A stretch of 42,920 nt of DNA. Origin: a virus. Location of the stretch: the IMG/VR virus record IMGVR_UViG_3300020312_000213, positions 1 to 42,920 of that record. One strand, written 5' to 3'. The notes under the pieces are model-generated. The model searched no databases, was not told where the DNA came from, and was given only the letters and a program-made list of their open reading frames with translations. The position numbers and the translations under genes were made by a program. Below, in pieces: positions 23,609-28,576 of this stretch. The stretch's first letter is position 1. Every line of letters begins with the position of its first letter.

Positions 23609-23778
23609 CGGTTCAAAAATAGAATGAGACCACGAATGAACATTGCAGCAAATAGGACATAATATACCCACAATCCAGTCATCATAACTTTATTGTAGGT
23701 AGATCCTTTTACATAATGAACTTCACCTTGTCGATCCCATCCATCAAGCATGTACTCACTTGGATCAATCTTTCTCAT
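23605..23778 (-). CDS. 57-aa single-span membrane protein
   Basis: The ORF (MRKIDPSEYMLDGWDRQ start) has a soluble N-terminus and one transmembrane helix (MTGLWVYYVLFAAMFIRG) followed by LILFLNR. It overlaps the helicase stop and the next start by ATGA on each side. Its role is unknown. Confidence 0.68.
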   Translation of the reverse strand: MRKIDPSEYMLDGWDRQGEVHYVKGSTYNKVMMTGLWVYYVLFAAMFIRGLILFLNR

Positions 23779-24959
23779 GTTTTCATAGTAGCAACTACAG
23801 GTTCACCATCAACAAAAGCAGTCTCATAAACGCTCTGTAAACGGCGAGAAGTTTGTATACCTACATTGTTACTGTAGGTAGGAACAACGATGTTCCCAAA
23901 CTGTTTATCAGGTGCAGGGCGAAGAACCCTACCAACAGACTGACACATCTCAATGACATTCATATTCCTAAGAAGAATAAGAGATGTCAAACCTGGAACA
24001 GAGATACCCTCACTCAAGATTGAGTAGTGAAGAAGTACAAACTTCTTATTGGGATCTTGTCCATACTCCTTCATGGTATCGAAGAAGTCATCTCTTGATA
24101 CTTTTTTGTTGTTAATAAAAGCACCATGCTTTGCAGTGATCCAAAAGAGATCATAACCCAACCATTTGAGTTGAGAACAAAACTCTGTCTCACTGAGCAT
24201 CCTCATTAACACCTTAGTGTTAGGAGCAGCAACTAGAACCTTCTCCATGTGATCTTCATTTGTGATCTGATCTAAGAGAGTTTGACAATCAAGATGATGG
24301 TCACCCTTTTCTCTAGGAACAGGAATCTTCACAGTTTTGATCTCTGGTGGAAGAATAGAACCAGACTTAACTAACCTTGGTGCAGGTACATTGTAGATAA
24401 TCCCACCAAAGAGATTATCATTCATTCCAGTCCTCTTAGGAGTACTGCTAAACTTAGGAGTAGCAGTAAAGAAATAGCACCCACCATTAACTCTAGTTGC
24501 AAAAAATCTAACAGCAGGGTAAAAATTTCTTTGAACACTGTTGTGTGCCTCATCAAAGTATATGGCATCTACATGAATACCTGACTCCTGTATCTTATGT
24601 AAAGAATGGTAGGTAGTGAAGAGTATCCTATGCTGCTTACGGAAGTAGTAGCAGAATGTAGAGATCTTATCAGGTTTAGTGGTTGAATGGTAATTACCAG
24701 AATCACCACTATGAACATGTAGAACACATGCATCAATAATATGCTCAGTAAACTCTGAACACAACTGATTAGCAAGAAGTAGTCTAGGAGCAACAACTAC
24801 AATGGTCTTATGACCAAGGAGTGAAGGTCGTCTAAACAAATTCTTGGCATGCTCTATGGCAATCATCGTCTTACCACCACCAGTGGGGACACAAATGATT
24901 CCCTTACGCTTATGACGCATAACGTCAAGTGCTTCTTTTTGGTGTGTACGAAGTTCCAT
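23775..24959 (-). CDS. SF2 helicase (DEAH type)
   Basis: The 394-residue protein has all main SF2 motifs: Q-like LRTHQKEA, Walker A PTGGGKT (25-31), DEAH (136-139), TATP, and motif VI QSVGRVLRP. It resembles UvsW/RadD-like phage helicases but lacks their extra N-terminal domain, so I give no symbol. A role in DNA branch processing or in the neighbouring restriction-like unit is possible. It has its own extended -10 promoter (24967-24975) and follows the methyltransferase gene by 29 nt. Confidence 0.9.
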   Translation of the reverse strand: MELRTHQKEALDVMRHKRKGIICVPTGGGKTMIAIEHAKNLFRRPSLLGHKTIVVVAPRLLLANQLCSEFTEHIIDACVLHVHSGDSGNYHSTTKPDKISTFCYYFRKQHRILFTTYHSLHKIQESGIHVDAIYFDEAHNSVQRNFYPAVRFFATRVNGGCYFFTATPKFSSTPKRTGMNDNLFGGIIYNVPAPRLVKSGSILPPEIKTVKIPVPREKGDHHLDCQTLLDQITNEDHMEKVLVAAPNTKVLMRMLSETEFCSQLKWLGYDLFWITAKHGAFINNKKVSRDDFFDTMKEYGQDPNKKFVLLHYSILSEGISVPGLTSLILLRNMNVIEMCQSVGRVLRPAPDKQFGNIVVPTYSNNVGIQTSRRLQSVYETAFVDGEPVVATMKT

Positions 24960-24988: not shown

Positions 24989-25405
24989 TCACTCGAAGAA
25001 CTGGTCTAATGTTACATCTCCTTCAGTTCCATCGAAACGATAATGATATTCCAACGCATCAGCACAAACATAATGAGGGTGATCTACAGATACACCTAGT
25101 CTTTTACACATCTCACTATGATTATCTTCCATAAATTCTACAGCATACAACATGTTATTAAGAACATGCTCTCTACTGTGATACCTCATCAATACCTTCT
25201 TCAACTGAACAATAAAATTACCATTACCTGCTGCATTATCTAAGAAGGTAGAAGTTGGATCTTTAAGAACACTCTCAGGTAAACCAAGAATCATCTTGTC
25301 ACATAAAGATGGTGGAGTGAATACTTCTCCAGTGTTCAATATCCTATCATCACTCCTAGTGATGTCAGATCCATACTTCTGATTGTGTCTATTCTTAGAG
25401 GACAT
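24989..25405 (-). CDS. SAM-binding part of a split adenine methyltransferase, 138 aa
   Basis: The protein holds methyltransferase motifs in the order X (TGEVFTPPSLCDKMI, 25-39), I (FLDNAAGNGNF, 54-64), II (YAVEFMEDN, 87-95) and III (CADALEY, 114-120), then stops. The catalytic NPPY motif is absent here and lies in the ORF just upstream. Read in gene order, the pair runs IV...TRD then X-I-II-III, the circularly permuted order of beta-class enzymes. It overlaps the catalytic ORF by 11 nt and has no clear ribosome site, so translation is probably coupled. Confidence 0.8.
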   Translation of the reverse strand: MSSKNRHNQKYGSDITRSDDRILNTGEVFTPPSLCDKMILGLPESVLKDPTSTFLDNAAGNGNFIVQLKKVLMRYHSREHVLNNMLYAVEFMEDNHSEMCKRLGVSVDHPHYVCADALEYHYRFDGTEGDVTLDQFFE

Positions 25406-26690
25406 TATTAGTCACCAGATAAGCAACTTCCTCTTCAGTAAAGTTGAACTGAGTATCTAGATCATCATAATCTGTAATATCAGGTACTTCTCCATTCTTA
25501 ACCGCAGCAGCGAATCCACCAGTTCTCTTATACTTATCAATGTATAACTGAATCAAAGGATGCCCAAAGATCTCAGATAATCTCTCACCTTCTTCTTCAT
25601 CTACAATAGGACACCATGCATTAAGCATACCAATATGTGCATTGGTTATAAATCTCTTCTTATATGAAGTAGAGTATGGTACAACAAACTTCAATACATC
25701 ACTAGTCTCAGGTTTTACATTAGTCTTCCAAGGATTATTACCTGAATGTAAGACTTCATACTCACCATCAGTACAATAATCTTCAGTAGCAATCGCTTGA
25801 CCCATCTTCAATGGGATACGTGGATGATTAGAGTTAGCAATCTTATTCAAAATAGAAGTCTCTAATGCTTTATCACCCCATACTGGTACACCATCACGAA
25901 GATCCCAATCAAACTCACAATCATCTGTAATAACTCTAGTCTTACCCTGATATGGTTCTTTAGTTAGATGCCAACTACAAATTTTTATTCCTTGAGTAAA
26001 GTGTTGGTCTGCTGTATAATCAATCTCCTTTAAATTATAAATCGTAGAGCAAAGTTTAAGGAACTTCTTACCAAACCCAGTAGTACCAATAAATGATGCA
26101 GGACAAACCTCACATAGATCACCACCATCCTCTAACATGTCAACATGCTGCAATAGGAACTTATTCCATTGCTTATTATTCTTTGCTTTACTGGTTGGAT
26201 CTTGATAAGGGGGATTAGCAAGAATCGCTGTTGGACGTAACACTGGTTTTTTGTGAGTTAGGGTGACGTTCTTGTCAATATATTCTACCCTATTTCTATG
26301 GTTAGCACAATCATCCCAGACTGTCAATCCATAAACATTAACATTCTTTTCCAACAACCTAGCAGTATGAGAACCGCTTGGATCGGAGTGTATAAGGGTC
26401 TGTGAGGTGTCTTTTAATTTACTAATCATTGGATCAAGAAGAATTAAAGGGATGGTCTGCTGGATGGCAGAGGACACTGAGAGGATATCTAATGTCTTAG
26501 TTACCGACTCTCTCATACTTGTTATGATAGTCTTAGACTCTGTACCAATACGACGTGTAAGTTTCTCTCTGCTATTGTGATTAGCATCTATAACATCAGA
26601 GAGTATACCCTCAGTATCACCACTAATATCACTATAGATTGGTGATTTTAAGATATCATCTATAGTATTAACATTCTTACCTTCCTTCAA
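25395..26690 (-). CDS. N6-adenine methyltransferase catalytic/TRD ORF, probably entered by -1 frameshift
   Basis: The ORF has motif IV ANPPYQ (158-163), a following LEDGGDLCEVCPASFI strand typical of Eco57I-like enzymes, and a C-terminal half that looks like a target recognition domain (GQAIATEDYCTDGEYEV). A degenerate SDPSGSHTARLL...VYGL block at 102-121 may be a decayed motif I. The only start that could open it is a TTG at 26690 with no ribosome site; the first internal ATG is at about residue 59. The frame is open upstream to the slippery site at 26768. A -1 shift there would fuse it to the upstream helicase (~1053 residues in total). Confidence 0.8.
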   Translation of the reverse strand: MKEGKNVNTIDDILKSPIYSDISGDTEGILSDVIDANHNSREKLTRRIGTESKTIITSMRESVTKTLDILSVSSAIQQTIPLILLDPMISKLKDTSQTLIHSDPSGSHTARLLEKNVNVYGLTVWDDCANHRNRVEYIDKNVTLTHKKPVLRPTAILANPPYQDPTSKAKNNKQWNKFLLQHVDMLEDGGDLCEVCPASFIGTTGFGKKFLKLCSTIYNLKEIDYTADQHFTQGIKICSWHLTKEPYQGKTRVITDDCEFDWDLRDGVPVWGDKALETSILNKIANSNHPRIPLKMGQAIATEDYCTDGEYEVLHSGNNPWKTNVKPETSDVLKFVVPYSTSYKKRFITNAHIGMLNAWCPIVDEEEGERLSEIFGHPLIQLYIDKYKRTGGFAAAVKNGEVPDITDYDDLDTQFNFTEEEVAYLVTNNVL

Positions 26691-26695
26691 GATAT

Positions 26696-26721
26696 AAAAA
26701 ACACAAAGAGGTAAACTCTTT
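26696..26721 (-). terminator. weak terminator-like hairpin between helicase and methyltransferase ORFs
   Basis: AAAGAG/CTCTTT stem with a 5-nt loop, then GTG and six T. The stem is A/T-rich, so termination would be weak. It may act as an attenuator or as a second RNA structure near the frameshift site. Confidence 0.25.
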
Positions 26722-26728
26722 AAAATTG

Positions 26729-26789
26729 CCCTAACTACTTTCTTCTTTAAAGCGTTAGGGTCTGGTTCTTTTTTACAGATTCAACCTCC
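26729..26789 (-). promoter_or_regulatory. candidate -1 programmed frameshift signal
   Basis: In order on the mRNA: GGAGG (26785-26789), 10 nt, the in-phase slippery heptamer A AAA AAG (26768-26774, zero frame GTA AAA AAG), a 7-nt spacer, and the perfect 7-bp stem CCCTAAC/GTTAGGG (26754-26760 with 26729-26735) with an 18-nt loop that can add a 4-bp CTTT/AAAG helix. This is the same three-part layout as the Escherichia coli dnaX -1 site. After the shift the frame stays open into the methyltransferase ORF. Confidence 0.7.
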
Positions 26790-28555
26790 GCTTTATAACC
26801 ACTCTCACTATTCATACTCTCATCACCTACTACTGCCGTCTTTAATACCCTTGATGAAACATTATCTGTAGCAAAAGTACTTATATTGTAGTTAAAATCA
26901 ACGTCATCTAGATTCAAAATTGACTCTAAACTTTCCATTGTAGACATAGTAGAATCAATATCAGTAGATAGAATACTATCAAATTCTTCCTGTGTTATAT
27001 CCCTAAAACCATCTTCATAACCGTTAAGATCCATAAACTGAACCTCATGATAGTTTCTCAACTCAGGATTATTATCACATGCTAACTGGAACGCAGTATT
27101 CATTGCTTTAAGAGCACGTTTACCATTAAAGTCAATCACCCACCAATCGTGTTTACCTGATCCTCCACGGAAGGCAAACTGAGTCCAGAACTCAAGAGAT
27201 TCACCACCCTTACAATTGATAATAGTATCAATCTTCTCATTGGTAAATCCTAATACATTTGCAGATTGAGTAAGAATAAGTGCTTTTGGATTTGATTCGA
27301 TAAACTTATTAATTTCCCTTGCCTTATTTTTAGTATCACTAGTAACAACTAGAGTAGGATAATAACACTCAACAATTTTTTTAAACTCATGGCATGCTGC
27401 TATGCTAGATAGTGCCATCATAATAAATCTTCCTTGCAGCATCTTCTGCTTCAATCCAATCTTTCTTTGTGGACCTTTAGGACTAAAGATATCAAAAGCA
27501 AAGTCAGTAGGAAGTTGTGGATTTAAAAACTTACCAGTCTCTTTATCTATCAGGAATATATTATTAATTGAATCAGGATCATTACCAAAAATCTTACGAT
27601 ATGCAGGTGTCTGATATACTCTTATTACTGGTTTCATTCTAGGACGTTTAAACAGTCCCTTTCTTACATCTAGTTGCTCATCAAAATAAGTATATACAAA
27701 CTTATTATCATCATTAAAATCCCATACTATGCTGTAAGCAGTACCAGATACATAAAGTGTCTTAGTATTATACCTCTCTTTAAGTTCAATAAACTCTTTT
27801 GCTGTAGAACCTATATGACACTCATCAGCAACAAGTAAATCTGGTTGGGGTATCTCACGATTCATTAATGATTGTACAGATGCCCATAGAACAATATTAA
27901 CTGGACGTTCCATCCAAAATTCTAATTCCTGTTCCCAATTCTTATCCTTAACTGAAATATATCTAATAGTTGGGAAGAAGTCACGAGAATCATCCTTCCA
28001 TGATTGCTCTGGTGAATTAAATCTAGAACATACAACAGTCAACTTATAATCCCAATCCACAATATGCTTAAGAGTCATTATAGACTTACCTGCACGACAC
28101 TTTGCAAACAATAAAAACTGTTGATGACCAGATTTCCATGCTTTAGATATCTTATTTAAAAAGTTCGTTTGATATGGGTATGGATTAAATGTCTTCCATG
28201 TTTTCTTTGCACCAGAGAAGAATTTCTCATGAATCATTTGAACTACCATTGGCACACTAATAATATTCTCATCAACCTCAAAAGTCTCTCTACCAATCGC
28301 CGTAACACCAGGTATATCTTTCTTCAAAAAATCATGTACAACATGATCTTGATGACTTATATCCAAATCTCCATCAGGTCTTGTAGACTGATTCTCCCAG
28401 ACTCTCAACGGGATGCGTTCACCATCATATACATCTATAACTTGATTTGCTTTACCATAATCACCATCTTTATGTCTCTTCTCATATGATCGTGTAGTCT
28501 CACCAAATCCAAACCTATGGGGTTTGTGTTTGTATCCATCACAATAAAAATGCAT
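26747..28555 (-). CDS. restriction-type nuclease-helicase (GIY-YIG-like domain plus SF2 helicase)
   Basis: The protein has 602 residues from the ATG at 28555. Residues ~14-95 resemble a T5orf172/GIY-YIG-type nuclease: FGFGETTRSYEKR with the key Arg, a VVHDFLKK helix, and ETFEV supplying the Glu. The SF2 core follows, with Walker A CRAGKS (153-158), DECH (244-247), SGTAYS (270-275) and motif VI QFAFRGGSG (459-467). The C-terminal ~120 residues may be a coupler. This is the layout of a restriction subunit. The stop follows a slippery site that would join it to the methyltransferase. The nuclease call is the least certain part. Confidence 0.8.
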   Translation of the reverse strand: MHFYCDGYKHKPHRFGFGETTRSYEKRHKDGDYGKANQVIDVYDGERIPLRVWENQSTRPDGDLDISHQDHVVHDFLKKDIPGVTAIGRETFEVDENIISVPMVVQMIHEKFFSGAKKTWKTFNPYPYQTNFLNKISKAWKSGHQQFLLFAKCRAGKSIMTLKHIVDWDYKLTVVCSRFNSPEQSWKDDSRDFFPTIRYISVKDKNWEQELEFWMERPVNIVLWASVQSLMNREIPQPDLLVADECHIGSTAKEFIELKERYNTKTLYVSGTAYSIVWDFNDDNKFVYTYFDEQLDVRKGLFKRPRMKPVIRVYQTPAYRKIFGNDPDSINNIFLIDKETGKFLNPQLPTDFAFDIFSPKGPQRKIGLKQKMLQGRFIMMALSSIAACHEFKKIVECYYPTLVVTSDTKNKAREINKFIESNPKALILTQSANVLGFTNEKIDTIINCKGGESLEFWTQFAFRGGSGKHDWWVIDFNGKRALKAMNTAFQLACDNNPELRNYHEVQFMDLNGYEDGFRDITQEEFDSILSTDIDSTMSTMESLESILNLDDVDFNYNISTFATDNVSSRVLKTAVVGDESMNSESGYKAEVESVKKNQTLTL

Positions 28556-28576
28556 CAATTTAAATTCACTGAACCT

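Follow-up and report, generated by a model that had tools for sequence, protein, structure and literature searches.

To our knowledge, few conserved programmed ribosomal frameshifts are on record besides those of transposons, tail chaperones, prfB and dnaX. In Escherichia coli dnaX, an internal Shine-Dalgarno (SD) sequence precedes the slip site by 10 nucleotides (nt), and the shift in vivo amounts to about 50%. Shifted ribosomes terminate one codon later, making gamma (PMC5009743), and 5 nt separate the slip site from the downstream hairpin (PMC8861025). According to Atkins et al. (2016; PMC5009743), when the efficiency is close to 50% the roles can be exchanged by altering one nucleotide. 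Both dnaX signals and the reversal of their polarity between distant bacteria are already known (PMC5009743, PMC3711429); for several of the reversed cases, slippage during transcription of long A runs has been named as the mechanism (PMC3711429). A frameshift has also been suspected, but not seen, in one restriction fusion, NsoJS138I, where the expected short product was sought and did not appear (PMC3850674). For phage helicase-methyltransferases or cyanophages searches of the open-access literature gave no frameshift report. Here we analyze a stretch of 42,920 nt, hereafter the window, which is IMG/VR virus record IMGVR_UViG_3300020312_000213 from position 1 to 42,920. One of its genes, encoding a putative helicase-methyltransferase, would be expressed through an E. 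coli dnaX-type programmed -1 ribosomal frameshift, a reading to which we assign a probability of about 0.9.

The Signal at the Helicase-Methyltransferase Junction

A sequence-only reading of the window had described a three-part signal composed of GGAGG, 10 nt, an in-phase A AAA AAG, 7 nt and a 7-bp stem, and each part was found in the place given for it (table 1). The 10 nt separating GGAGG from the heptamer are TTGAATCTGT. The stem arms pair perfectly over 7 bp, and RNA folding extends them to a bulged 12-bp hairpin of -12.7 kcal/mol (z -3.9) that outperforms 199 of 200 shuffles. GGAGG-N10-AAAAAAG occurs a single time in the window and in none of 100 shuffles, while in simulated sequence heptamer, SD and stem would coincide 0.017 times per strand. 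Among the 9,655 window codons examined, A AAA AAG stands in phase nowhere else, and 25 of 39 Lys-Lys pairs are written AAG AAG.

We propose that ribosomes at GTA AAA AAG would be held there by pairing with the upstream internal SD and by the downstream hairpin, and that in a fraction of them both lysine tRNAs would re-pair one base back. Slippage at AAG is favored where a host has a single tRNA-Lys(UUU). In the window, ribosomes that do not shift would meet a stop six codons on and release a helicase of 602 amino acids (aa), and those that shift would make a helicase-linker-methyltransferase fusion of 1053 aa. Both lengths agree with the earlier computation when counted from the ATG at 28555; an alternative TTG start of the zero-frame open reading frame (ORF) is possible upstream of it, at 28558.

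Table 1. Elements of the candidate frameshift signal and the two reading frames that it joins. All window coordinates of the signal and the gene refer to the minus strand.
Feature	Position	Strand	Description
Zero-frame ORF, short product	26747..28555	-	602 aa; superfamily 2 (SF2) helicase (ResIII) with an N-terminal module of unknown fold
GGAGG, internal SD-like stimulator	26785..26789	-	Precedes the heptamer by 10 nt
Slippery heptamer A AAA AAG	26768..26774	-	In phase; the zero frame reads GTA AAA AAG
Spacer from slip site to stem, AACCAGA	26761..26767	-	7 nt; in the alignment, site of the 1- or 4-nt length difference that decides between the wirings
Putative stimulatory stem-loop	26729..26760	-	CCCTAAC (26760-26754) with GTTAGGG (26735-26729), extended in the fold
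Zero-frame stop TAA	26747..26749	-	Six codons past the slip site
-1 frame	25395..26768	-	457 codons, to 25398; predicted helical linker and Eco57I-type N6-adenine methyltransferase; stop at 25395-25397

A Close Family with Two Wirings

Scans of IMG/VR delimited a close family consisting of the window and 24 contigs with an in-phase A AAA AAG at the junction, which includes near-copies and comprises about 18 distinct junctions. The heptamer is in phase in all 25 members, down to approximately 66% nt identity, and the two ORFs occur in two frame relations, which we refer to as wirings. In 11 genes (the window, L015, L018, L020, L022-L026, L032 and L038) reading the methyltransferase takes the -1 frame, and the zero-frame stop comes 0 or 6 codons past the slip. 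The other 14 (L016, L017, L019, L021, L027-L031, L033, L035, L037, L040 and L047) have an open frame through both halves, and in every one of them a -1 shift reads exactly one codon and then a stop, an outcome that chance would give at 12% of random positions. A second product is therefore defined in every close-family member by a nearby stop in one of the two frames. Many relatives thus have the mirror image of the window's wiring, which a reading of the window sequence alone had no means of seeing.

Both polarities clearly occur among close relatives, since the open-frame L021 stands beside the -1-wired L020, L023 and L032, and the -1-wired window and L015 stand beside the open-frame L016 and L017. 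The alignment gives L016 and L017 a spacer four nt longer than that of the window, and shows a difference of 1 nt between the L019 and L022 types. The A6 run is identical in all close-family members, and the length changes lie in non-homopolymer sequence outside it. In relatives with such a 1- or 4-nt difference after the cassette, the fusion would be the default product and a slip would yield the short form after one codon. Mapping the wirings on the methyltransferase tree requires four changes, three of them forced by well-supported branches, whereas the helicase tree and the local tree each require three, and bootstraps give 2-4. Recombination can inflate such counts, and we estimate that the wirings have interchanged about 2-4 times.

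Outside the close family, A AAA AAG also stands in phase at the matching place of the distant homolog L129 (37% identity), without an SD and without a nearby -1 stop, and is there either a vestige or a product of chance. The genome collection contributed a single contig with a phage-like copy, L104 (PAHT02000089.1), whose methyltransferase half is 85% identical; although filed under a Rhodobacteraceae metagenome-assembled genome, it probably comes from a phage and was misbinned. Scanning for the pattern of SD and heptamer returned 35 stretches, among which those encoding this helicase-methyltransferase protein were all already known.

Conservation of the Cassette and Selection on the Downstream Frame

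The junction is written xxA AAA AAG in 17 of 17 representatives, compared with 2 of the 132 other Lys-Lys pairs that these genes contain. Among 12 diverse members, with like residues compared, the slip-site codons GTA AAA AAG (GCA in two) are synonymously invariant; the GAG codon inside the SD is identical in 12 of 12 diverse homologs, and either GGAG or GAGG is kept in all. The stem is paired in 96.5% of cells, against 15-42% when it is slid by one to three columns, a control that keeps relatedness. Four pairs have changes on both sides and the covariation score exceeds that of all 500 shuffles, a control that ignores relatedness. RNAalifold independently recovers the identical stem, the arms of which differ strongly between groups (CCCTAAC/GTTAGGG, CCTTGACA/TGTCAAGG and CCTTGATA/TATCAAGG).

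For the -1 frame downstream of the slip site, the ratio of nonsynonymous to synonymous substitution (dN/dS) amounts to 0.06-0.20 within the L020-L025 group and to 0.34 between the window and L018 (Nei-Gojobori, dS 0.08-0.9). Because these values are low, the downstream frame is very probably translated. The dnaX-like frameshift put forward from the sequence alone is thus strongly supported by the slippery site of all 25 members, the covarying stem, the invariant GAG and the purifying selection on the downstream frame of -1-wired lineages.

The same data bear on the possibility that decay, or an assembly or sequencing indel, split a former single ORF in which A AAA AAG is incidental. The single open frame of 1059 aa in L016 and L017, the closest relatives of the window (91-94% nt identity in the methyltransferase), speaks in favor of this explanation, which we nevertheless hold to be very unlikely: A6G does not change from one state to the other, what differs being 1 or 4 nt of non-homopolymer sequence; the -1 state recurs in eleven contigs that come from many samples and fall into two or more distant groups; selection continues to act on both frames, each of which is open; and heptamer, SD and covarying stem would not persist in a decayed gene. 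The repeated -1 state together with dN/dS led us to reject a pseudogene or assembly error, and homopolymer phase variation was rejected since A6G is constant across relatives and the length change falls outside the run. The indel in the A6 run that had been kept as an alternative (error, phase variation or decay) does not stand, given that A6G is unchanged in open-fusion homologs, whose 1- or 4-nt difference comes after it.

Less probable still is a separate start of the methyltransferase half, by reinitiation or at an internal site, which would make two genes without any shift. Two phages, S-CAM7 and ACG-2014f, do have the methyltransferase as a separate overlapping gene; however, the first 20-26 codons of the -1 frame hold no start codon in any -1-wired gene, the earliest start codons have no SD, and the protein is conserved from about codon 10 onward. 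In the window, the earliest possible start is a TTG 26 codons past the slip, without a ribosome site, and the earliest ATG is at codon 84. A separate start would also leave the heptamer and the -1 stop of the open-frame relatives unexplained. Equally improbable is slippage of RNA polymerase at the A run, which would yield mixed mRNAs and the same product pair from either wiring, as used by Thermus dnaX (PMC5009743), since every member has only six A against a run of nine in Thermus dnaX (PMC3711429) and such slippage would require neither a conserved SD-like GAG 10 nt away nor a hairpin that follows after 7-8 nt.

Some observations weigh against a programmed frameshift. L034, L036, L039 and L048 are related open fusions without an in-phase heptamer at the junction, and the device is therefore dispensable in some lineages; the heptamer may have had a single origin and been lost from L034, L039 and L048, or may never have been present in them. 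The spacer to the hairpin measures 7 nt in the window, 8 in most open-frame relatives and 11 in L016 and L017 only. These spacers of 7-11 nt are longer than the one in E. coli dnaX, and L016 and L017 may slip poorly. Finally, dN/dS around the window is only moderate at 0.34-0.84, the upper value being reached in the helicase half, perhaps due to a mosaic gene.

A Proposed Balance between Two Products

The repeated flips in which protein needs the slip suggest that both proteins matter. Because the wiring was swapped repeatedly while the cassette was kept, the conserved output is probably a short helicase and a long helicase-methyltransferase in comparable amounts. From this we infer a slippage efficiency near half, since only then could the wiring flip without much change in output, and the methyltransferase-less short form would be needed beside the fusion in a restriction-modification-like complex. 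In this context, we put forward a wider scenario, on balance likely though held with less assurance than the frameshift itself, where the cassette is the conserved element and the frame relation flips, selection acts on the short to long ratio, slippage is near 50% and a methyltransferase-less partner subunit is needed.

Hairpins average -16.5 kcal/mol in the -1-wired genes and -13.4 kcal/mol in the open-frame genes, and are thus somewhat stronger in the former (p 0.018, uncorrected for relatedness), while the two wirings show no difference in SD strength (p = 1.0). Stronger hairpins would keep the long form abundant in the -1 wiring, a point to be read with a test that ignores relatedness. 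The overall pattern suggests stoichiometric balancing of helicase-only and helicase-methyltransferase forms, and oppositely wired gene pairs that are more than 90% identical provide a natural test of near-equal slippage letting polarity flip freely. If this is true, automated gene calling would annotate these phage genes wrongly under either wiring, by splitting them in two or by missing the short product.

Gene Product and Modular Exchange

The window protein matches PF04851 (ResIII) above cutoff and its short product also matches phrog_22930; the SF2 helicase motifs GKS, DECH, SGTA and QFAFRGGS are visible in the alignment. The -1-frame half matches phrog_3689 and contains the methyltransferase motifs DPSGSHT and NPPY, while PF07669 (Eco57I) scores above cutoff in the fused homologs L019, L027, L005 and L008. 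We regard the long form as most likely a restriction-modification-type helicase-methyltransferase. The short form is most likely a helicase subunit that lacks the methyltransferase, possibly partnering with the long form. The output of the gene may be restriction versus restriction-plus-modification.

The N-terminal module of approximately 120 residues is conserved, with G, T, R, H, D, Y, K, H and E invariant or nearly so, and has no match in Pfam (E<=1), in PDB sequence or profile searches, or in a Foldseek fold search. By eye, its conserved residues suggested a possible GIY-YIG-like nuclease, for which the Pfam, PDB profile and Foldseek searches all came back empty; the label of nuclease given to this part by the sequence-only reading finds no support in any search. 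For a putative target recognition domain, to be sought in a late methyltransferase segment, there is likewise no family match, and an AlphaFold model of the full fusion had a low predicted local distance difference test score (pLDDT) of 46.

Between L017 and L018, DNA identity is 100% in the N-terminal ~150 codons but only 56-82% in the remainder of the helicase half, which is a recent swap of the N-terminal module. L029 and L033 are near-identical genes falling to 68-80% DNA identity only at methyltransferase codons ~250-400, and this late segment swap looks like an exchange of the target-recognition part. Swaps of both kinds are the pattern that a modular, specificity-changing enzyme would be expected to show.

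Named relatives, none above 40% identity, are all Synechococcus phages, several of them annotated as type II restriction-modification restriction subunits, and the window belongs to a virus record with tail-fiber and baseplate genes. On these two grounds we take its source to be a cyanophage-like virus. Directly 3' of the gene, on the same minus strand, a 138-aa protein (24989-25405) is similar to phage methyltransferase family phrog_21201, and the next gene (23775-24959, minus strand) encodes a 394-aa DEAD/ResIII helicase.

Comparison with Known Systems

The Synechococcus phages MA01, MA10, ME01, MC09 and S-CAM7 carry homologous helicase and methyltransferase parts (25-41% identity) under the annotation of type II restriction-modification system restriction subunit. 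The MA01 type differs from the window family in that its single frame is open throughout and its junction has no cassette, whereas in S-CAM7 (L009) and ACG-2014f (L010) two overlapping genes are split approximately 110 residues downstream of the window-family slip site. The NsoJS138I fusion has a slippery-like sequence at its domain junction and a nearby -1 stop, as here, but is a different enzyme type, a controller protein fused to a restriction enzyme.

Tau and gamma of E. coli dnaX offer the closest parallel in architecture: the heptamer A AAA AAG, an upstream internal SD, a hairpin a few nt downstream and a common N-terminal part in the short and long products are alike, as is, in the open-frame relatives, a -1 frame that stops one codon past the slip. 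The clamp loader is, however, unrelated to the phage helicase-methyltransferase, its 5-nt spacer contrasts with 7-11 nt in the phage family, and the polarity of the window is reversed, the long product needing the shift. In this last respect the window resembles the reversed dnaX of the Chlorobium type, in which the long subunit comes from the shift. The reversal in dnaX separates distant bacteria, whereas the phage family holds both polarities down to 91-94% nt identity, with A6G unchanged.
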